From: a virus | IMG/VR virus record: IMGVR_UViG_3300020411_000851 | Location: 1-38,396 of that record | DNA length: 38,396 bases | Reading direction: 5' to 3' (one strand) | Shown: piece by piece, positions 8,134 to 38,328 of the stretch | Layout of the letters: every line of letters begins with the position of its first letter | How positions within the stretch are numbered: the first letter of the stretch is position 1 | Notes under the pieces: model-generated | Seen by the model: the letters and a program-made list of their open reading frames with translations, nothing else | Databases searched by the model: none | Told to the model about the DNA's origin: nothing | Made by a program: the position numbers and the translations under genes

Positions 8134-11100
8134 TTATTTTTTAGTAATAGTAGATACGATTGTGATCTCGATTTGATGACCAGTAAGAAGGTTTGCACCA
8201 AGTTCAAAATTGATTCTAGCAAGGTTGCCAGCTGTTCTCTCAAAGGTAGGAACAATCAATTGCTGTCCCGTTCTAACATTACCATACTCTGTATGGAAGA
8301 TGTCTGTTCCATTATCTATAATACCAAACTCAAAAAATTCTCTATCATTGTTACTTAAGTTTTCTGCAACTACAACTGTTTTAGCTCCTACTGCAGTTAC
8401 AGCATTATAAATGTCAGATCCACCTGTGTTTGCAGAACCCTTAGTTAGAGTTACTTTTTCTGTTAGGATCTTAGTGTCTGCAAGTTCAAACTCTTTAAGA
8501 TCTCCATCAAAAACTTTTACTCCAGTAAAGTTACCTGTACCGAATGTTGTATTGAAATAAACATCACCTTGATTATCAAGTCTAAGAACTGGGTCAACTG
8601 ATAAACCACCAGAAAGACCTAGATCAAAGTATTGCTTACTGGTATGTAAGAATGTTCTATCTGCAAGAGTATTATCAAGAGTTGTTTCAGCATTATCGAA
8701 TGTCATCAAACTTGCTGTAATTTCAAACTCACTAGATGTACTAGAGATAATAGTATCTACGCTATAGAATTCAAGTGCAGATGCAGTAAGACGCATCGTG
8801 TTTGTTCCATCATTGTAGAAGTATAAAATATTCTCGTTTGCACCAGGTGAAGTCTCAGGAATAATATAAGTGTTTTGATCAACGTCTTTTACTCCACCAA
8901 GAGAACCCCAGTTAGTTCCATCATAACCTTCAAACTGACTAGCAGTTGTATTAAATCTAATACCACCTTGAATTACTGCACCCCTTTCTGAATCAGTACC
9001 AGAAGGAATTGCCAAACTAGTATTTGTATTACATACAATCTTCTTACCAGCATTAGGTTGAAAAGTAAGATCACTAATATCTGTAGAAATAATATTATCT
9101 CTAAGTCTCAAATCTCCATTAATCACGAAGGGAGAAGAACCTAATGGATCTAATCTAATTTCTTCAACGTCAACAAATGTTAGAGGAGCAACTGCAAGAC
9201 CCCAGAAGGACAGAGTTGCTGTTCCATTTGGTAATGCACCAGAAGTGTGTGTTGGTTCGTTACCACTTGTGGCAGTTGTACCAGCTACAGTTACTTCATA
9301 TAAATTGTTCTTCCACTTCAGATATGCACCAACTAATACAGGTGCGTTAGCTATCCAATTAGTGTATGCTGGAGCAGATGTATTTGCAGACTTAATAGTT
9401 TTATTAGTTCTGAATTCCAATTCATTTGGAGTAAACTTAACAGTATTATCTCCATCATTATAGAACCAGAGTGTATTATCATTAGAACCAATAGAAAGTT
9501 CTGCAGTGATGTATGTGTTTCCATCTAAGTCTCTTACACCACCAAGAGAAGACCAAGAAGAAGTTGCAGCACTATAACCTTCATATTGATTACTATCAGT
9601 ATTAAATCTGATAGATCCATTGTCTGCACCACTAACACCAGGACGTTGTGCAGTTGTACCAGCAGGAATATTAATAGAACCAAAACCAGTAAATTGGGTG
9701 ACTTTACCAGTAGGAGCTGTTATAACTATGTCACTACCAGAATCAGAAGAAATAACATTATTCTCAATGAATATATTATCGTTTACATTAAGTTTACTTG
9801 TAGTCTTAAGTTCACCTGTAGTAACAACATCACTGGTTGATTGAGTAACAGAAAATCCACCAACTGAGAAGTTTGCAGTAGACGATACAGAACTTCCTGA
9901 TAAAGTAAGAGCAGAACCAGCTGCGGTAACTAATGGAGTTGTAACGCTAGTGCTTGCTGCAACAGTAGTAGATGAAAGATCAGGAGCACTAAGAGTATCA
10001 ATGGTTCCTTCTGTAGCTACGATGTCAGAAACAGTTACCTGACCAGTAAGAACTTCCATTGTGACGATATTTACAGAAGAAATATCTGTAGCTCTTAAAA
10101 GTAATCCAGTACCAAATACTTTAGGGTTGTTAGGATCAACAGTTATTAATGATTCGTTGTTATCTTCACCACCTTCATCTTCGTGACCAGCACCAGAAGC
10201 ACAATAGTAGTAAAGGTTTGGAGTTGCAGAAGTAACAGTTAAATCTAGATAAGCACCACCATTAGCATCAGCACCTCTTTCCACACCATCAGTGTATTCA
10301 GTACCACTAAAAGTAAGAACTGAAGCACCTCCTGTTTCTGGTAAAAGAGTAAGAGTTAATTGAGTTGCACTGTCAATAGATTCAACTCTTGTATTGGACG
10401 CTAATAAACCATCGCCACTAGTCACAGAAGCAAGCATTCCAACTTGAATACCTGTAGTAGATGCTACAGTTATTTGATAACTAGCTACATTTAATGTTGT
10501 ACTGACATTCTCTACTAAACTTGGAGCATATGGTCCATCTCTAAATTCACTAAGAGCAAATTGGTGACCAGATACGCTATTATCACTTAAGTCAAATCTA
10601 TAAGTATTACCAACATAAATTGTCCATGCTGGAGTAAGAGTTGGACCAGATCCAACATCAATTAAGAATCTAAATTCAAGATTACCTGCTGTATCAGATG
10701 TATACACTGTTCCAGGAACACCAGTTTTAATAAACTGTTGTCCAGCAGTAAATGCACTACCTTGATCTACTTCAATTAGAATAGTAGAAATATTACCATT
10801 ACCATCTAGATCAACATTTAAAACAGGAACTGCTGTAACAGTAGTAACAGTAACAGCAGTAACAGTAATATCATTTGCAGGAGTAGCTCCACCAATTAAG
10901 TTACCAGCAATCGTTATCGTATCAGCATCAGCATATCCAAGACCAGCAGCAGCAACATCAACACTTGCGATTGTTCCGTTTGTATTTCTAACAACATCAA
11001 ATGTTGCACCACTACCATTTCCAGTAGTTGTAGAAGCAACACCACTAAATGTTCCAGACTCGTCTGATGTGAATGTTAGATTAATACTAGCAGTTTGAAG

Positions 11101-13536
11101 GAATGCAGCAGATAGTGTTACTTGAGTTGCACTATCAACAGATGCAACAGTAACATTAACTGCAAGGTTACCACTTCCATCTTCTGCTACTGCGTCTCCA
11201 ACACTAATACCAGTTGTATCTGCAAGAGTTGCGGTGAATTGCCCTTGAACACAGTTACAAGCAAGAGGACCAGTTGTAGTTTGTGTAGTGTCACCACCTG
11301 TAAAGGTGATGTTTGTGACACCTCCAGCTAATTCTTCTAATGTATCACTAGTTGTAATAGTTCCACCAGCAACAGTTTGAATTAAAGTAATCCTTTGAAC
11401 GTCTTTAACAGTTACTGGATAAACGATAGGTTGAGTTAAATCACCAGCATTTACTGTAAACTCATCAAGTGGAGAATAACCATTACCTACTTCTACTAAA
11501 GTAAAACTTCCTACCTCACCAAGAGTATCAATTGTGTAAGTAAAATCATCTGCAGGGTCACCAAATGCAGGAATAAAGTTAACAACAGCAGGTCCTAATG
11601 TAGTTGGGGCATCTGATAATGTAACGGTGGTAGCACTGTCAACGTTAGCAATCGTTGTATCTGCTGCTAGTACACCTGTACCACTTACCTTCTCTACTTT
11701 AAATCCAATAGTAAGTCCTGCTGTGCTTGCAAGAGTAAGTTCATTTGAAGATGTTGTAGAGAATGTTAAATTTGCTGCACCAGATACAGTTGGATTTGCA
11801 GACAGTGTTATTTGTGTTGCACTATCAATAGATGCAATAGTGGTTCCTTGAGCAAGTTCACCAGTATCTCCAGCACTTCCATCTACATTTAGACCTACTA
11901 TAAGATTGGATGTATCCGTAATAACTACCTGAGCACTACCTGTACTTAAAGTTGCAGTGAATGGTCCAATTGAACCAGGTAGATATACAGATACGTTAGA
12001 AATTTGTTTAGGTAATCCTAGTACATCACCAATTTGATATCCAGATCCTCTTTCATTAAGAACAAAGTTAGTAAGATCACCAGGAATAGCTGAAACTGTC
12101 CATTGGAAACCAGATCCACCTCCACCTCCTACAGAAGCATCAGCTACGCTAAGTACATCACCATTTTGATAACCAACACCACTATCAGTAATTGTTACAC
12201 TATCAACAATACCTGTATTAGTTACACTAGAAATAGTATACTCGAATCCAGATCCTGTACCACCAACTAAACTATTTGGAATGCTAACTACATCTCCAGT
12301 GCCATAATCAACACCTGTGTTAGTCCATTGTACATCAGTAACTGCACCGCCTGAGATAGTAACATCAAAGAAACCTTGCCAACCATAGTTAGTGTATGTT
12401 GTTGTGTCTTGTGTGGTAATACTACCACCTGAAGGACCCATTCCTGGATGGTTTGCACAATCATAACGAAGACTGAGACTACCTGTGGGAGCACCAGGTT
12501 TTAATACGAGATCAGTAAAGCATCCTGCTTGTCCGAAAACACCAGCAGTGAAGGGTTCAATTAATGTCGCATCAACAGGTCCTCCATTAGCAAGTTGGAA
12601 TGTTATTCTATGATCACTTCCTGGTGTTCCTGGATTAGCTCCTGCTATTGATGAATCAGAAAGATCAAATCTATATGTGTTACCAACATCTAGTGTTAAC
12701 TGAGGTTGATCTACACCGTCAATGTTATAGATGAAGTTTGGTTGTCCTGAACCACCAGCATTAGGGTTAGCTACAGATGTAACAACAAATGTTTGAACTG
12801 GTTCGTTAAATATTTGAACCTGTGAATAAGAACCATCGGTATATCCACTACCAGTATTAGTAATACTTCCTGCAGGAGTTGATGTACCAGTAATTTCAAT
12901 GGTAGCTTCTGCTCCAGATCCATTTCCTCCTGTAAGAGGAACATTTTCAAAAGTAGCAGGAAAATAAGCAGAACCAGGATTTGTGATAGTACCTTCAAGT
13001 TCAGTAATGTCAAAACTTCCAGTTGCTCCAGTTCCATTACCATCAACAAGAGGAACTGTTAGATACTGACCAGTGATATAACCAGAACCAGAATTTGTAA
13101 CAGAACCATCAAATGCTAAGACTTCAAAATCTGCAGTAGCATTTTGTCCTGTACCACCAATTAAAGGAACTGCTGTATATGAACCAGCATCATATCCACT
13201 ACCACCACTAACCAGAGTAATTAGAGATTGTGCTAGTTTTCTCTGCTGAATATTAATATCTTGGTATGTCGTAACTTCTGATAACTTAAAATCAGCAATT
13301 TTCTTACCACTATTGACAAACCCTATAGTTTTTACACCAGCTTTGTAGATACCTAACTGTGTGTCACTAGTAAACTTAAGTGATGGATCTCCAACTAGAC
13401 CATCACCTAGTTGTAGGTTACCAGTGGATAGGTCACTACCACCAGATGTTACGCTAAAAAGAGCGGTACTTATTTGATTGATCTTCTGCCTTTGAGACTC
13501 AAAGGTATCGGTCTTAGCTACATTAATTGCTGGCAT
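8134..13536 (-). CDS. Giant tail-fibre protein with cupredoxin-like domains (1800 aa)
   Basis: The N-terminus MPAINVAKTDTFESQRQKIN followed by SGGSDLSTGNLQLGDG matches the attachment region of cyanophage fibre proteins as I recall it. TAATAA lies in frame just before ATG 13536, fixing the start. Parts in order: four Gly-Ser-Gly-Tyr beta repeats (about residues 107-250); a cupredoxin-like domain (about 255-378) with H309, C360, H363 and M366; more Gly-Tyr repeats; SIDSAT-type beta repeats (about 525-650 and 765-825); a second cupredoxin-like domain (about 960-1130) interrupted by another SIDSAT repeat; a Ser/Thr-rich shaft; two copies of a GSIRFNT/GGIRFNT...YNDG fibre module (about 1320-1560); and a beta-rich C-terminus. 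It is probably a host-recognition fibre (inference). It overlaps the upstream coiled-coil gene by 14 bases. Confidence 0.85.
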   Translation of the reverse strand: MPAINVAKTDTFESQRQKINQISTALFSVTSGGSDLSTGNLQLGDGLVGDPSLKFTSDTQLGIYKAGVKTIGFVNSGKKIADFKLSEVTTYQDINIQQRKLAQSLITLVSGGSGYDAGSYTAVPLIGGTGQNATADFEVLAFDGSVTNSGSGYITGQYLTVPLVDGNGTGATGSFDITELEGTITNPGSAYFPATFENVPLTGGNGSGAEATIEITGTSTPAGSITNTGSGYTDGSYSQVQIFNEPVQTFVVTSVANPNAGGSGQPNFIYNIDGVDQPQLTLDVGNTYRFDLSDSSIAGANPGTPGSDHRITFQLANGGPVDATLIEPFTAGVFGQAGCFTDLVLKPGAPTGSLSLRYDCANHPGMGPSGGSITTQDTTTYTNYGWQGFFDVTISGGAVTDVQWTNTGVDYGTGDVVSIPNSLVGGTGSGFEYTISSVTNTGIVDSVTITDSGVGYQNGDVLSVADASVGGGGGSGFQWTVSAIPGDLTNFVLNERGSGYQIGDVLGLPKQISNVSVYLPGSIGPFTATLSTGSAQVVITDTSNLIVGLNVDGSAGDTGELAQGTTIASIDSATQITLSANPTVSGAANLTFSTTSSNELTLASTAGLTIGFKVEKVSGTGVLAADTTIANVDSATTVTLSDAPTTLGPAVVNFIPAFGDPADDFTYTIDTLGEVGSFTLVEVGNGYSPLDEFTVNAGDLTQPIVYPVTVKDVQRITLIQTVAGGTITTSDTLEELAGGVTNITFTGGDTTQTTTGPLACNCVQGQFTATLADTTGISVGDAVAEDGSGNLAVNVTVASVDSATQVTLSAAFLQTASINLTFTSDESGTFSGVASTTTGNGSGATFDVVRNTNGTIASVDVAAAGLGYADADTITIAGNLIGGATPANDITVTAVTVTTVTAVPVLNVDLDGNGNISTILIEVDQGSAFTAGQQFIKTGVPGTVYTSDTAGNLEFRFLIDVGSGPTLTPAWTIYVGNTYRFDLSDNSVSGHQFALSEFRDGPYAPSLVENVSTTLNVASYQITVASTTGIQVGMLASVTSGDGLLASNTRVESIDSATQLTLTLLPETGGASVLTFSGTEYTDGVERGADANGGAYLDLTVTSATPNLYYYCASGAGHEDEGGEDNNESLITVDPNNPKVFGTGLLLRATDISSVNIVTMEVLTGQVTVSDIVATEGTIDTLSAPDLSSTTVAASTSVTTPLVTAAGSALTLSGSSVSSTANFSVGGFSVTQSTSDVVTTGELKTTSKLNVNDNIFIENNVISSDSGSDIVITAPTGKVTQFTGFGSINIPAGTTAQRPGVSGADNGSIRFNTDSNQYEGYSAATSSWSSLGGVRDLDGNTYITAELSIGSNDNTLWFYNDGDNTVKFTPNELEFRTNKTIKSANTSAPAYTNWIANAPVLVGAYLKWKNNLYEVTVAGTTATSGNEPTHTSGALPNGTATLSFWGLAVAPLTFVDVEEIRLDPLGSSPFVINGDLRLRDNIISTDISDLTFQPNAGKKIVCNTNTSLAIPSGTDSERGAVIQGGIRFNTTASQFEGYDGTNWGSLGGVKDVDQNTYIIPETSPGANENILYFYNDGTNTMRLTASALEFYSVDTIISSTSSEFEITASLMTFDNAETTLDNTLADRTFLHTSKQYFDLGLSGGLSVDPVLRLDNQGDVYFNTTFGTGNFTGVKVFDGDLKEFELADTKILTEKVTLTKGSANTGGSDIYNAVTAVGAKTVVVAENLSNNDREFFEFGIIDNGTDIFHTEYGNVRTGQQLIVPTFERTAGNLARINFELGANLLTGHQIEITIVSTITKK

Positions 13537-13729
13537 TTTTTATTATTCCGCGTAGAATTGATTTGAGTTCAGAGACTTCATTCTTCAATGTATTTATGTC
13601 GTCCAATGCGGAACTTAGCTGCATAGATTTCCTTCTTGCAGCTATAGCAGAATCATCCAAATTCAAGATGGCACCAGTATTTTGGTCTCTTACGAGACCA
13701 TCATGTCCATCAACTTTCACAAAGTCCAT
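13523..13729 (-). CDS. Small coiled-coil protein (68 aa)
   Basis: The gene starts at ATG 13729, nine bases after the stop of the 2710-residue gene, and its end overlaps the next fibre gene by 14 bases. The protein opens with MDFVKVDGHDGLVRDQNTGA, a polar segment, and ends in a heptad-like helix (SALDDINTLKNEVSELKSIL). I recall similar short proteins beside fibre genes in marine T4-like phages, without an assigned function. Position and coiled coil suggest a small virion part or a trimerisation or assembly partner for the fibre (inference). The tight overlap implies linked translation. It is unlikely to be a chance frame, since it fills exactly the space between two structural genes. Confidence 0.75.
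   Translation of the reverse strand: MDFVKVDGHDGLVRDQNTGAILNLDDSAIAARRKSMQLSSALDDINTLKNEVSELKSILRGIIKNASN
13591..13598 (-). promoter_or_regulatory. Candidate late promoter CATAAATA inside the 68-aa gene
   Basis: The minus strand reads CATAAATA, seven of eight bases of the T4 late box, with 54 bases before ATG 13536 of the 1800-residue fibre gene. It lies inside the preceding small coding region, so a chance match cannot be excluded. Confidence 0.35.
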
Positions 13730-13738
13730 ATGCGGAAA

Positions 13739-16700
13739 TTAGAATGCAGCTACAGCACGAATGTCTTGAATCTTAGGTACATACGCTGGATCCACTCCTT
13801 TCATTACAATTTTTATCGAGAAAGATGAATATTCTGGTAGATTTGATACCGTATATTTAAGATCTTGATATGCAGATTGCTTCTCTACTATTCCAGAAAT
13901 TGTATTTTCGCTAGTTGCAATTTCATATGTATCTGGTTCTCCCTTTTCATTAAAGTAGACCCAATCTATATCATCAAAGTTCTCTTGACTAGATGCCTTC
14001 TTAAACTTATAGAATACTTCTAAGTTAGAGATGTCTTTAACATTTGCAAGTAGATGTACATCAATTGCAGTAGCTGGACTTGTAATAGAAACTTCTTTAG
14101 TTACGTACTTAGCAACAGCAGATCCATTCTTAGATGTATCTTCACCAACAAAGTCAACACCATCTGTGTAAGTTACTTTACCAACTTCCAAATACTTAGA
14201 TTCTTCATCTGGTTGATTAGGATACTTAACAAAATCACCTACACGGAAAATATCTGCAATTTGATCACCAGTTTCAGCATTTCTGGTATACAAAGCACTA
14301 TCAATTATTCTATCAGTGTAGTTATCGTTAATAGGATTAACATCAACTCTTAAAGTTAACTTTTGTGTTTCACTATTCCAAATAGTAGCTTTACCAGTAA
14401 TAACATTGTCATATGTCTGGAGAAGTTTCGATGGGTTACGAGCAACAATAGTTGCAGCATCTGCAATAGTTGCTGAAACTAAAGATGGATTTGAATCTAC
14501 AGTAACGTTTGTAAGACCCAACTGTTTTCCTAGAGTTACGGTTTCTCCTTTCTGGAAGAATTGACTCGTCTTAACTCTAACGTATACAACTTGACCTACA
14601 ACTCTAGCAATAGTTCCTGTTGTCTTAGTAGTATTACCATTGATTATTTGATCCTCTTGTATATCTGTACCACCGTTACCAGCAAGATTAAATTGATAAA
14701 CTGGATAGAATTCAATAATTTGATCTCTTCTACCAAATCTATCTTCTTGTCCAGTAGCATTTTCAATTCTATTTGATACTGTTTTTACAGTAGCACTAGA
14801 AAGATCAATAATTGGACTCAAATGAGACACAGTAGACGATAGAGTCATCTTATATGTAAGTGACTGAGATAAACCATTTAGAGTTTCATTAATATCAGAT
14901 GCAATAAACTTCTGATTTGTAAAATAATGTGGTTCATTCAAGAATGTTTTTTCATATTCTGCTTGTGAATATGAAGTGAAATTAGTTGTAGTAGAATCTA
15001 CTGGAACAACATTAGTTGTTTTAACTTCTGTTGATAAATTAGTACCAGTAAATGAGAGATACGAAACTTGTGGATATAGAGTTTCATATTTTCTATTTGT
15101 AGATGCATATACAGAACTTCCACCACCAATAGAATTACCAGCAGCTTGAGAGCTAGAAACAATATTATATGAATCAATACCAGAATTACTTACTTGGAAT
15201 AATGTGTTATTTAAAATTGATGATGTAATACCACCTGTTTCTAATGCAGTTCTATAGAATACATAAGAATTTCCAGCAGTTTCAAATCCATGATCTCTAT
15301 GATTTACTTTAATAATAGAGTTATTATTCTTGAATAGCTTAGAAGTGGAGTTAGTATTTGCATTTGCATTTGTTTGGAATGGATCCTCATCTAGAAGTTC
15401 ATAACCAAGACTTTCATTTTTAACTAAAAGTTCTGCTGGTCTTGCAGTATTAAACTCAGCACGATACATGGTGAACTTAAGATCTTCAAAATTATCTTCA
15501 GTCCAACTTTCGGTATTCTGGGAACGGTATACCGAACCTAAAGATGGTTGGGTTGTGATGACCGTACTTGTAGCAATGTCGGTTTCCCCTAATTTAGAAG
15601 ACCATAGCTCATAATCAATAGAATCAGTTTCAATTACAAGTGCATACTCTGTATCATTCTGCAGATATACAGGATAATCAAATGCAAAGTGTGTAGGAGT
15701 AGTAGATTCTGTAACACCAACTTGATCAATTGCTACACCCATTCTGACTGCAGGAGTATCAATATCAATAAATGTCTGAATTTCACATCCACTAGCACCA
15801 TTACCAACACCCTTAACAACAACTGAAGGTGCTTCAGTATATCCAAAACCAGATAATGAAATTTCAGTATTGTAAATCTTACCACCAGAAACTTCAATCC
15901 TTGCAGTAGCAGTAGAACCTCCAGGAAGTTGTGGACTTTCAATAGTTAGAATTGCACTGTCATAGTTTTGACCAGGATTAGTAATTCTAATATCAGATAA
16001 TTTACCACTATCTTTTACAATAGAAAGAATAAAATCTGTACCATCAGTTGCATTAGCAAGAGTTACGGATGGAATAATTAAATCTTCGTTTGGTAAGAAT
16101 GATTTGCCATTATGGTTACTTAAAACTACAGTATAAACTTGCTCATTAGTAAGACTATACTTACCAGAAGCAGTAGCTACTAGTTCTACATTATTCTTAT
16201 CAAATACTTTAAGTATAGGACCAGATGCAGCAGAAGATGCACCAGTTACACTTTCTCCTTTATATACTGCCATGTTTCCACTAGCAGCACACTTAAGGAA
16301 AGTATTTGGAGATAGAGTCTTCTCAGATCCAGGAACAATATTCTTAGCAGGTTTCTCTGCATCTACATTAGTAATGTATGTCTTGACTGGTACATTTGTA
16401 CTCTTTTTATTAAAGTATAAATCAACACCAGTTACAAAACATCCACCCTCTAGATTTTCTACTTTAAATGTTTGAGCTAATGGATTTGGTCTAATAGGAT
16501 TATCAGTGTTACTTGAAATAAACTGTACACCCTCATTAGATTTGAATATCGATGGTTTTGTAGATACAATACTTGAAGGATTTTCTGGAAGAATACCAGT
16601 AGCATAATACTTAACTTCTGTATAAGAATCTACACCTAATTTTGATTCGTTAGTTGCACTAGAAGTAAATCTAAATGTTAACTCACCAGTAGTGAAATTT

Positions 16701-21930: not shown

Positions 21931-23745
21931 TTAGAACTCAATAACTAGTTTGATATCTTCAATTTGGTCTGGAGCACGAGTAATTAGTCTTCTGTTCTCA
22001 ACGTAAATCACGTTTCCAGAGTTATTTTCGATCTCTGGGTTAGCTAGACCACTTGCGAAAGTGACACCTAGTAGTGCTTGACTATAAGAAGTATCAACGT
22101 TACCAGAAGCAGTAGAAGTCTCACCACTAATAGCATTAGAACCATTAGACTCAAATGCTCTTACAACACCTTGATCGGTGTGTGCATCAGATGTTTGGAT
22201 ATACTTAAGAACTCCAGCAGTTGTAGAACCACTATCAAGTGTCCAAGAAACAACTGTACCTTCTGCAGTACCACCAGTTACAGTCTGAGTAATCTTCTCA
22301 TCAACAGAGAAGTCTGCAGAAGCACCAGTAATCTTAACTGCTTTCAATCCAGATAATGTGTCAGCAGTTGCGAAAGTTGTTGTGCCGTAGTTATAAGGAT
22401 CAGAAACAATACCAATTCTACGGAAATCGTTGTCTACAGGGAAGTCACCTTGACCTTCAGAATAGGTTAAGCGAATGTTTGTCATAACACGCTTACCATT
22501 TAATTCTGTCTCGTGATCAGAACCATGTCCACCAGCAGAAGGAAGAACAATTTCAATAGCACCAACAGCAGATCCACCAGTTGCGACTGCACTGCTTAGA
22601 CCAGCATCAGAGAAGAGATTACCATTAGAAAATAGAACATTAGCATAAGTGTAACCTGATCCACGAGCTTGAATCTCAGCAGATGTAATTGCACCAGAAC
22701 CGTTTGTTACAAACTTAACAATTCCATTAGATCCATCACCCTTAATAGATGTGTATAGAGTCTGTGATGCAGGAAGACCTGAACCAGCGTTCTCAATCAA
22801 AGCAACATCACAAGCACCAGGAGTAGCAAGAGCTACAACTGCTTGTCTAGAAGTGTTGTTAGAAAGAACGATTGGCATGAAGTCAGAAGAAAGGAACTTC
22901 AGAACATCATCAGTTGGGATGGTATACATATACTTCCAAATGTATCCAGCACCAGTGCTTTCTGTATAAAGACCTGTAGCAGAAGCATAGTTACCACCTG
23001 CTGTAGATGGTTCCTCAGTTGCGTTCTGACCAGTTGTGTTAGAAGGATTCTCTCCGTTATACAAACACTTAAATACTTCGTATGAGGAGTTCATTACATA
23101 GAACTTAGCATCTGCAATGCTTGAAGCACCTGTTGCAGTTTGCTTACCAATTTGACCACCGCCACCTGGTGTAGCAGAATAGTCAGGTTTCCACATGTCA
23201 AACTTAGGGTTAGCTACTAAGTCCCAGTTGTAACGACGAATAACTGTTCTAGCAAATGAATCTGTGATACGCTTTGCAGCAATCATTTCGTCATAAAGAC
23301 CATACTTCTCTGTTTGGTTATCAAGAGGAAGTGGTGGAACATCTTCTGTAGCGTAACGATATACACCAGAAACTGCTGTGGCACCTGTGTCAGATCCTCC
23401 AGCACCGCCGCTTCTACCCTTAAGAGCAGAACCAAGAGGAGGAGCAGAGTTAACACCGTTGCTACCAAAAACGTCGGTCAAAAGAAGGGCACTATCATAA
23501 ACTGCAGCAACTGTGGCACGGAAAGCGGTGGAACCATATGTTCCAATGTACACTTCGTTGCCAACTACGAACGCTGTGGAATTTTGCGTATGAATCTCTA
23601 AGTACCCTTTCCATGGTTGTGGACGTCCCACAAAGAAGTACATCCTAGAGCGTTCCGCACTAGTGTCATTGGGACCTTCAGTGAGAGATTCTAAAAATTG
23701 TTTAGCATTGAATATCCTAAACTTATCAGAGATAATAGCAGCCAT
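21931..23745 (-). CDS. gp8: Baseplate wedge subunit, gp8-position protein (604 aa)
   Basis: The start MAAIISDKFRIFNAKQFLES and the end VENRRLITRAPDQIEDIKLV match the protein usually labelled gp8 in marine T4-like phages, as I recall. It is 604 residues against 334 for T4 gp8. The extra length includes a Gly-Ser-Gly-Tyr beta repeat (ARGSGYTYANVLFSNG, about residues 360-375) of the kind found in the neighbouring giants. In T4, gp8 joins gp10, gp7, gp6, gp53 and gp25 in each baseplate wedge. It follows the gp7-position gene and has its own late-promoter-like cluster 37 bases before ATG 23745. The family call is good; assignment to gp8 rests on position and recalled annotation rather than visible similarity to the T4 protein. 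Confidence 0.75.
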   Translation of the reverse strand: MAAIISDKFRIFNAKQFLESLTEGPNDTSAERSRMYFFVGRPQPWKGYLEIHTQNSTAFVVGNEVYIGTYGSTAFRATVAAVYDSALLLTDVFGSNGVNSAPPLGSALKGRSGGAGGSDTGATAVSGVYRYATEDVPPLPLDNQTEKYGLYDEMIAAKRITDSFARTVIRRYNWDLVANPKFDMWKPDYSATPGGGGQIGKQTATGASSIADAKFYVMNSSYEVFKCLYNGENPSNTTGQNATEEPSTAGGNYASATGLYTESTGAGYIWKYMYTIPTDDVLKFLSSDFMPIVLSNNTSRQAVVALATPGACDVALIENAGSGLPASQTLYTSIKGDGSNGIVKFVTNGSGAITSAEIQARGSGYTYANVLFSNGNLFSDAGLSSAVATGGSAVGAIEIVLPSAGGHGSDHETELNGKRVMTNIRLTYSEGQGDFPVDNDFRRIGIVSDPYNYGTTTFATADTLSGLKAVKITGASADFSVDEKITQTVTGGTAEGTVVSWTLDSGSTTAGVLKYIQTSDAHTDQGVVRAFESNGSNAISGETSTASGNVDTSYSQALLGVTFASGLANPEIENNSGNVIYVENRRLITRAPDQIEDIKLVIEF

Positions 23746-23782: not shown

Positions 23783-23808
23783 TATTTATATTTATAGCAA
23801 TATTTATC
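23783..23808 (-). promoter_or_regulatory. Three tandem T4-late-type promoter boxes (gp8)
   Basis: The minus strand holds GATAAATA (23801-23808) and two overlapping perfect TATAAATA boxes (23789-23796 and 23783-23790) within 26 bases. The first overlaps the TGA stop of the upstream giant gene. The last is 37 bases before ATG 23745. Two exact consensus copies make this the best promoter call in the window. Confidence 0.75.
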
Positions 23809-36330: not shown

Positions 36331-36338
36331 TATTTAGC
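36331..36338 (-). promoter_or_regulatory. T4-late-type promoter box GCTAAATA (gp25)
   Basis: The minus strand reads GCTAAATA, and its TAA is the stop codon of the 203-residue oxygenase gene. There are 22 bases between the box and ATG 36308. It is the third copy of this octamer in a gene junction. No further box is seen before gp6 or gp7, so it would drive about 12.5 kb. Confidence 0.5.
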
Positions 36339-36945
36339 GACTAATGTCCGTGTTCAACCATACATTACCACTGATCGACACCCTTTCTTCCTCGCAATTA
36401 TAGTATGGATACACTGCATGTAATAACTTAGACGGAAAGAATAACATTGTACCTTCATCCTTCTTTGTTAGCTGATAACGATACATGCATGACTCTCCTA
36501 GTATATTCAGGTACTGGAATTCAAATACACTATTTAACTTAAAGTTAGCAGTATTATCTTTGTTTTGTTCTTCGTAGTCTGTTGGTATCTTTAACCATAT
36601 AACAAATGAATATGCTCCTCCATGATTATGGATGGGTTGATATTCATGTTGATGTTGATAGTTTACCCAGAAGTCCCTAAGGAAGTATGGATGCTCTTTG
36701 TATATGTTCTCGTGCTTACCATACTGAAAGACTTCGTTAAACTTATGGATTAATGGATTGATAGTATTAAACAGGAATAGGTCACCTATGTCCTTTATAT
36801 TAATACTCCTATCCACATGCCCTATTAACTGTGGTTTAGCATCACTAACATGCTCATCAACACACATCCACAAATGCTTCAATTCATCAGCATTTAGCTT
36901 ATGTTCCAACCATCCAACATTAGATGGAGTAATACTTTTTAACAT
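36334..36945 (-). CDS. 2OG-Fe(II) oxygenase-like protein (203 aa)
   Basis: The C-terminal half has the double-stranded beta-helix signature of phage 2OG-Fe(II) oxygenases (2OG-FeII_Oxy_5 type): metal-side histidines in PIHNHGGAYSFVIW (H106 and H108), the distal histidine in FFPSKLLHAVYP (H176), and an arginine twelve residues later (R188 in EERVSISGNV) placed to hold the 2-oxoglutarate carboxylate. Such enzymes hydroxylate proteins, nucleic acids or small molecules using oxygen and 2-oxoglutarate; the substrate here cannot be read from the sequence. The first metal ligand motif looks like H-x-H rather than the textbook H-x-D. The gene starts six bases after the 48-residue gene and ends at the gp25 promoter box. 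The family is fairly sure, the activity less so. Confidence 0.85.
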   Translation of the reverse strand: MLKSITPSNVGWLEHKLNADELKHLWMCVDEHVSDAKPQLIGHVDRSINIKDIGDLFLFNTINPLIHKFNEVFQYGKHENIYKEHPYFLRDFWVNYQHQHEYQPIHNHGGAYSFVIWLKIPTDYEEQNKDNTANFKLNSVFEFQYLNILGESCMYRYQLTKKDEGTMLFFPSKLLHAVYPYYNCEEERVSISGNVWLNTDISR

Positions 36946-36951
36946 TATATT

Positions 36952-37098
36952 TTAATCGTGAAAACCTGGTATAAATTCCCCTTCGCAATAGTCTTCTTTA
37001 TCAAAAAGTTCTTCTTCCTTTACATTCTTTCTCTTTCCTTTCTTACGTAGATAGAGATCACTTTCTACTTCAGTGATAAGTTGCTTTTCTTCATTCAT
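36952..37098 (-). CDS. Small charged protein of unknown function (48 aa)
   Basis: A short gene with a strong ribosome site (AGGAGG, 11 bases before ATG 37098) that overlaps the end of the 72-residue gene by eight bases and ends six bases before the oxygenase start. The protein is highly charged: an acidic start (MNEEKQLITEVESD), a basic stretch over residues 18-27 (RKKGKRKNVK), then an acidic tail ending in FIPGFHD. There is no membrane segment or known motif. The ribosome site and exact fit between neighbours support a real gene. The function is unknown. Confidence 0.7.
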   Translation of the reverse strand: MNEEKQLITEVESDLYLRKKGKRKNVKEEELFDKEDYCEGEFIPGFHD

Positions 37099-37309
37099 GG
37101 TTTTCGGATCCTCCTATTGTACTACCATTCTTGGTAGCTAGTTTGTACATCTTCTCATGCATAGATTCATTTTCTTTTCTCATGTCATCATGCAATCTTT
37201 CAATTGGTGTTTTATCAGTAGCTATTGGCATAGAATCTAAAGGATTATATTTGTAGTCAGGATCAAACCATTCATCATAAGGTAATACGTTAGGTGCAGG
37301 ATAGGTCAT
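37091..37309 (-). CDS. Small hydrophilic protein of unknown function (72 aa)
   Basis: It starts inside the stop codon of the SET-domain gene (ATGA overlap), a typical sign of coupled translation. The N-terminal half is rich in Pro, Tyr and Asp (VLPYDEWFDPDYKYNPLDSM). The second half contains a predicted helix (IERLHDDMRKENESMHEKMY) that could pair as a coiled coil. No signal peptide, membrane segment or enzymatic motif is visible. I do not recognise the family. Its fixed place directly behind the SET gene makes an accessory role for that protein possible (inference only). Confidence 0.7.
   Translation of the reverse strand: MTYPAPNVLPYDEWFDPDYKYNPLDSMPIATDKTPIERLHDDMRKENESMHEKMYKLATKNGSTIGGSENHE
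37110..37115 (-). promoter_or_regulatory. Strong ribosome-binding site (48-aa gene)
   Basis: The minus strand reads AGGAGG within the end of the 72-residue gene, 11 bases before ATG 37098. It is the strongest Shine-Dalgarno match in the window and is what supports the 48-residue gene. Confidence 0.7.
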
Positions 37310-37605
37310 GTTACCGAATAGAAAGTGTACTTAAGAAAGAGTTCTTCTCCTTTTTTAATATCTTTAATAGTCTTCATATGATAAATCTTGCCCCATTCTT
37401 CCTGTTCATACCATTTTACACAATTGGGGTCGTCACTGTGGTTTACAAAACCTCCTAGAGGTGTTCTCATGATGTCCTCATCCACAACCACGTGTGAAAT
37501 ACCAAGATACATCATTGCACCAATATCCTCCTTTGCAAATAGACCTTGACCTGCTACAGGACTGTCTTTTACATGGATTTCTTTAGGCAATGCTTGATAC
37601 ATCAT
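37306..37605 (-). CDS. Minimal SET-domain protein, candidate lysine methyltransferase
   Basis: From MMYQALPKEI the protein is 99 residues, essentially one SET domain. Visible motifs: an AdoMet-side GxG-type start (VAGQGLFA), the NHS motif in GFVNHSDDPNC, and a closing KKGEELFLKY in which the tyrosine sits where the catalytic Tyr of SET enzymes lies (four residues after the GEEL leucine). SET enzymes methylate protein lysines with AdoMet. There is no pre-SET or post-SET cysteine cluster and no targeting domain. The frame can be extended to a GTG at 37650, one base after the preceding stop, adding 15 residues. I prefer ATG 37605 or 37602 because the extension looks unrelated to the fold and carries a promoter-like box. 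No ribosome site supports either start. The downstream gene overlaps it by four bases. Confidence 0.8.
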   Translation of the reverse strand: MMYQALPKEIHVKDSPVAGQGLFAKEDIGAMMYLGISHVVVDEDIMRTPLGGFVNHSDDPNCVKWYEQEEWGKIYHMKTIKDIKKGEELFLKYTFYSVT

Positions 37606-37619
37606 AATAGGAATTGTAA

Positions 37620-37627
37620 TATTTATG
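37620..37627 (-). promoter_or_regulatory. Candidate late promoter CATAAATA before the SET gene
   Basis: The minus strand reads CATAAATA, seven of eight bases of the T4 late box, 14 bases before ATG 37605. If used, the mRNA leader would be very short (about 8 bases), so this is a weak call. It also lies inside the GTG-extended version of the SET frame. Confidence 0.3.
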
Positions 37628-37651
37628 TCGGTGCCCCGCTCGGAGTCCACG

Positions 37652-38179
37652 TTATTTCATGTTCCAAGACAACACCAGACGTTCTTTCTCGCTTTCACAA
37701 GGTAATGTGTAGTGACCTACAAATGATGGAAAGAATACTACCGAACCACTTCGTATATCCCTCGGAGAATAAACATCCACCCATCCTATCACATTATTGA
37801 AGGGACACACAAATTGCGTCGGCGTATGCTCCTCTGGATCATAGTCAATGTACATGACAGCACTAAACCCAATAGCTCCGTGATTATGAATAAGATGCTG
37901 ATCACCTCTTCCACCTTTCTCGAACCAATATGCATCAACATTCAGGTCAGGTAACTTTACTTCCTTCTTAAACTTCTCTAACTCATCTCTGATCAATAAC
38001 TCAATTTTCGTCCATTCTACCTTCTTTGATCGGAAGTCACTCGGAACATACTCACCAGGTTCTTTCTTAAACTCCTGATGACTCGATAAGGCTTGCAGTA
38101 ATTCCTTCTTACGATCCCAATCCTTCGCATAGAGGTGAAAGATTGGGACTGCAAACATCGGTTCGATGTATTCAGACAT
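37652..38179 (-). CDS. 2OG-Fe(II) oxygenase-like protein (175 aa)
   Basis: A full-length small 2OG-Fe(II) oxygenase. An N-terminal FAVPIFHLYAKD strand and a helical middle come before the core: YWFEKGGRGDQHLIHNHGA with H98 and H100, SGSVVFFPSFVGHYTLP with distal H156, and the 2-oxoglutarate arginine R167 eleven residues later (KERLVLSWNM). The same H-x-H layout occurs in the second oxygenase of this cluster, but the two sequences are otherwise clearly divergent, so this is not a recent duplication. Start and upstream stop share a base (TAATG), with AGGA just before. Such genes are common in marine T4-like phages; a role in protein or small-molecule hydroxylation is likely, but the substrate is unknown. 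Confidence 0.88.
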   Translation of the reverse strand: MSEYIEPMFAVPIFHLYAKDWDRKKELLQALSSHQEFKKEPGEYVPSDFRSKKVEWTKIELLIRDELEKFKKEVKLPDLNVDAYWFEKGGRGDQHLIHNHGAIGFSAVMYIDYDPEEHTPTQFVCPFNNVIGWVDVYSPRDIRSGSVVFFPSFVGHYTLPCESEKERLVLSWNMK

Positions 38180-38328
38180 TATTTCCTGCCTTGACCACGA
38201 TAACGCTTCTTAGCTCCATTACGACTGGATGCAGAATACTTTGTATGCTTCCCCATACCCTGTCTAGTTTTCTTGGGAATCGCTTCAACGAACGACTGCC
38301 CACTTAAAGATGCTTTTATTTTTGCCAT
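38179..38328 (-). CDS. Very basic small protein (49 aa)
   Basis: It starts at ATG 38328, six bases after the preceding stop, and its own stop shares a base with the next start (TAATG). The protein opens MAKIKASLSGQSFVEA and has 14 Lys/Arg against one Glu: K at 3, 5, 19, 20, 27, 30, 40, 41, 49 and R at 22, 36, 42, 44, 48. The second half (SSRNGAKKRYRGQGRK) resembles ribosomal-protein or histone-tail sequence. I recall near-identical small proteins across marine T4-like phages, without a known function. It probably binds nucleic acid or an acidic protein surface (inference). No clear ribosome site is seen. Confidence 0.8.
   Translation of the reverse strand: MAKIKASLSGQSFVEAIPKKTRQGMGKHTKYSASSRNGAKKRYRGQGRK

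Follow-up and report, generated by a model that had tools for sequence, protein, structure and literature searches.

A gene for a minimal SET-domain protein lies in a variable slot of marine T4-like cyanophage genomes, between the gene for a conserved 49-residue basic protein, here called b49, and that for the baseplate wedge subunit gp25, and this position recurs in two separate SET lineages. The gene was analyzed in IMG/VR virus record IMGVR_UViG_3300020411_000851, positions 1 to 38,396, the whole of which (38,396 nucleotides) is referred to below as the window; it comes from a T4-like cyanophage, and its gp6 is about 80% identical to those of Synechococcus phages S-B43, S-WAM2 and S-RSM4. 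We favor, at a probability of roughly 40%, the reading that the SET protein is an active lysine methyltransferase, that b49 is its likeliest phage substrate, and that the two oxygenases encoded beside it, OX1 and OX2, are independent of it. The evidence consists of the fold of the protein, the conservation of its motifs and its synteny with b49 and gp25 in both lineages.

The assignment to the SET family, made in an earlier note on this DNA, holds: the protein matches Pfam PF00856 (SET) at 4.9e-11, its AlphaFold model has a pLDDT of 92.7, and the cofactor and catalytic motifs are invariant in relatives. The gene probably starts at the ATG at 37605, giving 99 residues, and not at the GTG at 37650, because phrog_28741 aligns from residue 16 and the family begins with M(M)YQALP. 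The motifs are GxG, RTPLGGF[VI]NHSxxPNC and GEELxLxYTFY, and an alignment of 65 diverse members, reaching down to 36% identity with the window protein, leaves G21, R47-T48-P49, G51-G52-F53, N55, H56, N61, E88 and Y93 invariant. Structure matches of the model (Foldseek, VIA-align) are SET methyltransferases throughout, with 274 chains at Z of at least 8, a top fold score for MLL1 (Z 11.9), and Z 11.4 for the chlorovirus protein vSET (root-mean-square deviation 2.1 over 87 residues). The earlier note had named the lack of a pocket for S-adenosylmethionine (AdoMet) as speaking against its reading; because the motifs are conserved and the fold matches, such a pocket appears to be present, as far as motifs and a predicted fold can tell. 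The protein is thus probably a minimal AdoMet-dependent protein-lysine methyltransferase, with a predicted catalytic activity.

The closest known systems include eukaryotic and viral enzymes. The MLL/SET1-type H3K4 methyltransferases give the best sequence and fold matches, and their motifs align with the GxG, NHSxxPNC and C-terminal GEELxxxY of the phage protein; at 26-30% identity, however, the latter appears to lack most of the SET-I insert, and it has no post-SET region or partner subunits. Like the phage protein, vSET (A612L of chlorovirus PBCV-1; profile match 4.2e-9) is a small stand-alone viral SET, but it belongs to a eukaryotic virus and acts on host histones (as an H3K27 methyltransferase, according to PDB entries), whereas the host of the phage has none. 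The aligned span is 86 residues in the phage protein against 104 in vSET, about 18 fewer, and the phage protein therefore appears to be without the greater part of SET-I, an insert that contributes to the substrate groove in other SETs. The apparent lack of most of this substrate insert would be in keeping with a non-catalytic binding module, or with a protein that modifies only itself; we think either very improbable, since the N-H and Tyr motifs stay invariant down to the 36% identity given above. Three SETs, at L093:2770-3144, L126:8193-8510 and L147:3182-3499 of our locus survey, have some 10-30 extra residues immediately ahead of RTPLGGF, at the SET-I position of other SETs, which may be a variable substrate-recognition region. 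The best viral fold match, BFVD A0A218ML49, comes from an uncultured virus and is a 971-residue protein named 'SET domain-containing', whose further domains might point to a substrate or partner.

Scans of IMG/VR with the window protein gave 341 relatives, of which 80 were kept, and further loci came from two divergent queries; relatives of the window SET are called SET1 and the separate lineage found in the same slot SET2. Within the phage GenBank collection this SET occurs in only six records, of four viruses. SET1 has b49 upstream and gp25 downstream in 103 loci; one more (L011) has b49 upstream on a contig that ends before gp25, which makes 104 with b49 upstream in all, and 8 further SET1 loci have gp25 and no b49 within 3 kb upstream. 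About 115 other SET loci show neither gene; many of these belong to phages of a different kind or lie on contigs stopping short of gp25. Spacing is often tight: by measured starts, 51 of the 104 loci have no more than 60 nt between b49 and SET1, 22 of them with a 4-nt overlap, and in 78 gp25 lies within 100 nt. The association of a SET protein with a small basic protein, pointed out in the earlier note, is therefore borne out as non-random, and it extends to two SET lineages.

The second lineage was first met in L318, between b49 and gp25, while SET-less control loci were being checked. A search with SET2 found 56 viral loci, 46 of them in the order b49, SET2, gp25, gp6; of the remainder, two have b49 and SET2 with no gp25 in reach, five have gp25 with no b49 seen, and three have neither. 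SET2 is coupled tightly to b49 (within 60 nt in 44 of 48 loci) and not to gp25, which usually lies about 800 nt away. It is present in seven Synechococcus phage records, under the label 'methyltransferase' or 'SET domain-containing' in some, and in RN05-S and Sf-CH1b it begins directly after b49. The SET2 proteins of RN05-S, S-B05, S-B43 and Sf-CH1b share with the window protein a SET domain in the b49-gp25 slot; they differ in lineage, in length (120 residues) and in matching the Pfam SET model over its full length. A short, unrooted tree of 98 SETs (103 columns) places SET2 in one clade on a long branch with support of 100/100; the SET1 proteins of the slot fall among SETs of bacteria and of other phages, together with a few relocated members. 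When 20 records were searched with PF00856, exactly one SET was found in each of 12 and none in T4 and seven others; as the records had partly been picked for having a SET, the count speaks to the lack of a second SET elsewhere and not to frequency. In 11 of the 12 the gene lies just after b49 (within about 0.7 kb), the exception being P-SSM7. Isolates with a SET include P-RSM6, RN05-S and Sf-CH1b, and S-WAM2 and S-RSM4 are relatives that have none. The occurrence of two SET lineages in one slot suggests a functional link, without amounting to proof. A single weak match of SET2 to a DNA methyltransferase model, in a scan for defense families, was taken as chance.

The b49-gp25 interval is itself a variable cargo site. 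Among control loci the two genes stand anywhere from about 4 to 1513 nt apart. The 73 IMG/VR loci that were picked for their similarity to b49 and also show gp25 include only two matches to the SET1 profile and SET2 in at least one more. Other occupants are phrog_3704, phrog_1414-like and phrog_3577 proteins and other oxygenases; among the nearest isolates S-WAM2 has a single 216-bp gene and S-RSM4 a 504-bp and a 216-bp gene, and ACG-2014j has a 'PurM' gene and a small gene. Slot genes at L424:2331-2957, L429:2026-2685 and L311:2689-3483 are annotated as 'PurM/phosphoribosylaminoimidazole synthetase' or as ferredoxin (phrog_3704); the name is perhaps a propagated misannotation, as neither of the two tested (L424 and L311) matches a Pfam family. 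Sullivan et al. 2010 (PMC3037559) described the interval from gp46 to gp25 as a hot spot of small genes.

b49 is a core cyanomyovirus protein, matching phrog_516 at 4.3e-25; each of the 19 cyanophage records tested has it, and T4 does not. Its basic character was read correctly from the start (14 of 49 residues are Lys or Arg), whereas the description 'histone-tail-like' is a remark on composition only, and nothing links b49 to histones. In comparisons with histone, nucleoid and ribosomal proteins it has no Pfam match, its family profile has no PDB match at E up to 10, and a single NCBIfam match, to StpA, stays below threshold at E 0.1; kinship with ribosomal or nucleoid proteins was accordingly rejected. 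T4 uvsY.-2 and uvsY.-1 were also considered as counterparts and set aside, since their sequences are unlike b49 and their genes come only after gp25 as the region is read. The record of S-B43 (MN018232.1, L428) holds two copies of b49, at 51393-51536 and 138092-138235, with gp25 and gp6 near 129045-131233 and a second gp6-like place; the other tested cyanophage records have one b49 each, and the S-B43 record is possibly a mixed or chimeric assembly.

Position and composition make b49 the likeliest single phage-encoded candidate substrate, a conjecture that leaves a host protein about as likely overall. The SET protein would be an enzyme of marine T4-like cyanophages, carried in the variable slot between b49 and gp25, that transfers methyl groups from AdoMet onto lysine side chains. 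In many relatives the b49 gene directly precedes that of the enzyme, and the stop codon of the one often overlaps the start codon of the other, so that enzyme and target would be made together; methylation might then tune the contacts of b49 with a nucleic acid or protein partner during phage development, an effect that is conjectural. A stronger version, in which two SET lineages were recruited to methylate b49 and so to place a chromatin-like lysine mark on a protein of the phage's own, is rather doubtful.

Several observations weigh against b49 as the target. It occurs in 444 phage records, nearly all of them without this SET, and conversely the enzyme is kept where b49 is missing or remote: Kolga-type pelagiphages, which like some other phages have no recognizable b49, carry the SET gene after a primase/helicase gene, and that of P-SSM7 stands behind nrdB at a distance of 110 kb from b49, so that b49 is not needed to keep the enzyme. 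Because the slot takes many other genes, an insertion preference, or the replacement of one SET by another, could give the same synteny. The near-universal lysines of b49 (alignment K24, K35 and K46) are equally conserved with or without SET, and other lysine differences between SET and SET-less phages could reflect ancestry and sampling; in gp25, columns 10 and 39 looked enriched, but a comparison of independent pairs, with no more than 2 to 4 supported ones available, gave no significance. Since the lysines of neither protein show a link to the presence of SET, they single out no substrate. In the window clade, finally, a late-promoter motif and OX1 stand between SET and b49.

Much of this would also be explained if the SET protein methylated a host protein (for example of the ribosome, an RNA polymerase or an elongation factor) as part of host takeover, its place beside b49 reflecting an insertion-prone slot. 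The same family in phages that are unrelated and have neither b49 nor gp25 (the Kolga type), the location in P-SSM7 and the hot-spot nature of the region upstream of gp25 (PMC3037559) are all in keeping with it, as are relatives that stand alone on the chromosomes of marine Flavobacteria (Flavobacteriaceae), Porticoccaceae and SAR86. These small bacterial SETs share the short architecture and about 34-47% identity with the phage protein, and phage SET1 nests among them, but they are unlinked to phage genes, and no conserved functional partner that could hint at a substrate was recognized among their gene neighbors. A host target is less easily reconciled with the convergence of two separate lineages directly after b49, or with the lack of a second SET elsewhere in 11 of the 12 records, and we hold it to be a serious possibility at less than even odds. 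SETs close to those of phages were also met in genome contigs binned as 'Euryarchaeota' and Pelagibacter (L232, L233, L234 and L236), which are probably phage contigs inside these bins.

The six minus-strand open reading frames of the window reported earlier were recovered at the same coordinates and in the same order, with neighbors abutting or overlapping by a few bases, and as they are kept in relatives they are real genes and not chance reading frames. In reading direction, the features of the slot and its borders are:

38179-38328, minus strand: b49, the 49-residue Lys/Arg-rich protein (phrog_516), a core cyanomyovirus gene found in 444 phage records
37652-38179, minus strand: OX1, a PF13759 2-oxoglutarate (2OG)-Fe(II) oxygenase-like protein with an HxH...H...R pattern, by profile and model; accessory cargo
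37620-37627, minus strand: late-promoter motif CATAAATA, matching the cyanophage/T4 late motif NATAAATA
37306-37605, minus strand: SET, the 99-residue minimal SET-domain protein (phrog_28741), first listed as an open reading frame from 37650 to 37306
37091-37309, minus strand: p72, a 72-residue protein of a small phage family, by PHROG match (phrog_17144/4639)
36952-37098, minus strand: p48, a 48-residue protein of a small phage family, by PHROG match (phrog_12480/1414-like)
36334-36945, minus strand: OX2, a PF13759 oxygenase-like protein, by Pfam match; accessory cargo
36331-36337, minus strand: late-promoter-like motif CTAAATA, 29 nt before gp25 and overlapping the OX2 stop codon
35916-36308, minus strand: gp25, baseplate wedge subunit (GPW_gp25), by Pfam and PHROG; the fixed right border of the slot

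Next in reading direction comes gp6. The p72 gene follows SET in L009-L012, L015, L016 and L019 as well, and p48 resembles the small gene directly upstream of gp25 in relatives. A DNA-level search of phage records found no relatives, no repeats of note that would mark a mobile cassette were seen, and the proteins of the window have no match among anti-phage defense families.

Expression was approached by scanning for the cyanophage late-promoter motif NATAAATA (PMC2984593) or its CTAAATA variant, so that the counts are motif matches against a background of 2.6% and not mapped transcripts; a scan for sigma-70 promoters stayed at chance level. The window has a late motif upstream of 6 of the 15 genes checked, including SET and gp25, and none upstream of b49, OX1, p72, p48 or OX2. 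Across loci the motif precedes gp25 in 86 of 111 cases, b49 in 0 of 107 and oxygenases in 0 of 58. Of 110 slot SET1 genes 14 have it, among them those of all ten window-clade loci, where CATAAATA and its flank are conserved as CATAAATATTA or CCTAAATATTA. Because the motif precedes SET and none precedes b49 or OX1, SET in this clade probably starts a late unit, with b49 and OX1 in the preceding one and read-through possible; in most relatives SET has no late motif of its own and would be read together with b49. Elsewhere in the window, three ATAAATA late-promoter-like motifs stand within 25 bases (23783-23807, minus strand) upstream of a gene for a 604-residue protein that starts at 23745.

The late motif of the window-clade SET, and the short distance to gp25 in the 78 SET1 loci counted above, would fit an enzyme that modifies a component of the virion or baseplate, for example gp25 or gp6, with which it is co-expressed late. 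This is nonetheless unlikely, because SET2 usually lies some 800 nt from gp25, most of the slot SET1 genes precede the motif of gp25 and have none themselves, and no gp25 lysine tracks SET after tree correction, in what is a low-power test.

Both oxygenases seen in the earlier note are confirmed as members of PF13759 (2OG-FeII_Oxy_5), OX1 at 1.2e-7 (32.5 bits) and OX2 at 3.3e-12 (47.1 bits) against a cut-off of 27, with a weak 2OG-FeII_Oxy_3 match for OX2 in addition. They are only 17% identical to each other and therefore do not stem from a recent duplication. HxH and a distal H and R are conserved in both, so that the classical HxD/E reads HxH, and the model of OX1 is a prolyl-hydroxylase-like double-stranded beta-helix that also resembles uncharacterized solved structures, at modest TM-scores. 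Nothing specific to demethylases was found, including no JmjC match in Pfam at E up to 1. The families (phrog_81 among cyanophages) are not specifically linked to SET. PF13759 oxygenases are widespread in cyanophages (PMC3037559, PMC9602691), with 0-14 such genes per cyanophage genome or contig, and they are frequent where SET is absent: the OX1 family occurs in 78 phage records and the OX2 family in 142, whereas this SET is present in 6.

The idea that SET and the two oxygenases form a single cassette for methylation, hydroxylation and demethylation of one target draws on gene order, which is contiguous in the window and in L010 and the same in L009, L013, L014 and L017. It also draws on direct SET-oxygenase adjacency, for which a within-locus permutation test shows no more than a weak enrichment (observed in 2.65 of 33 clusters, with 1.09 expected; p = 0.027). 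The parts are not conserved together, however. L012, L015, L016 and L019 have a SET 90-91% identical to that of the window and neither OX1 nor OX2, and of the 104 SET loci that have b49 upstream, no more than 13 show an oxygenase within 1 kb (L011, and 12 of the 103 in which gp25 is present too). The gene-order comparison thus finds SET and oxygenase genes rarely together in relatives, an outcome that the earlier note had itself named as speaking against the cassette. Together with the abundance of the oxygenases elsewhere, the late-promoter motif that separates OX1 from SET and the missing demethylase features, this makes a common cassette extremely unlikely. OX1 and OX2 are best read as independent accessory enzymes that share the slot in this lineage. 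A SET gene and an oxygenase gene are direct neighbors in 15 of 223 loci, variously arranged, and SET stands between two oxygenases in four (L044, L062, L120 and L122). Near the relocated SET of L120 lie two related open reading frames with CxxxCxxC motifs (10972-11787, HVSHSCNLTCEGCTHY, and 13729-14583, HVTHACNFTCEGCSHY), which are radical-SAM-like.

SET methyltransferases are chiefly familiar as enzymes of eukaryotic chromatin, and a search of the open literature found no paper naming both 'SET domain' and 'cyanophage'. We see the value of the finding in the association of b49 with SET, recurring as it does in two SET lineages, rather than in the set of genes present in the window. A family of SET proteins that marine phages carry, and whose gene position links it to a single conserved basic protein, offers a testable hypothesis of enzyme and substrate in a setting without histones, and gives a lead to the role of b49 itself, a core protein of the cyanophages.

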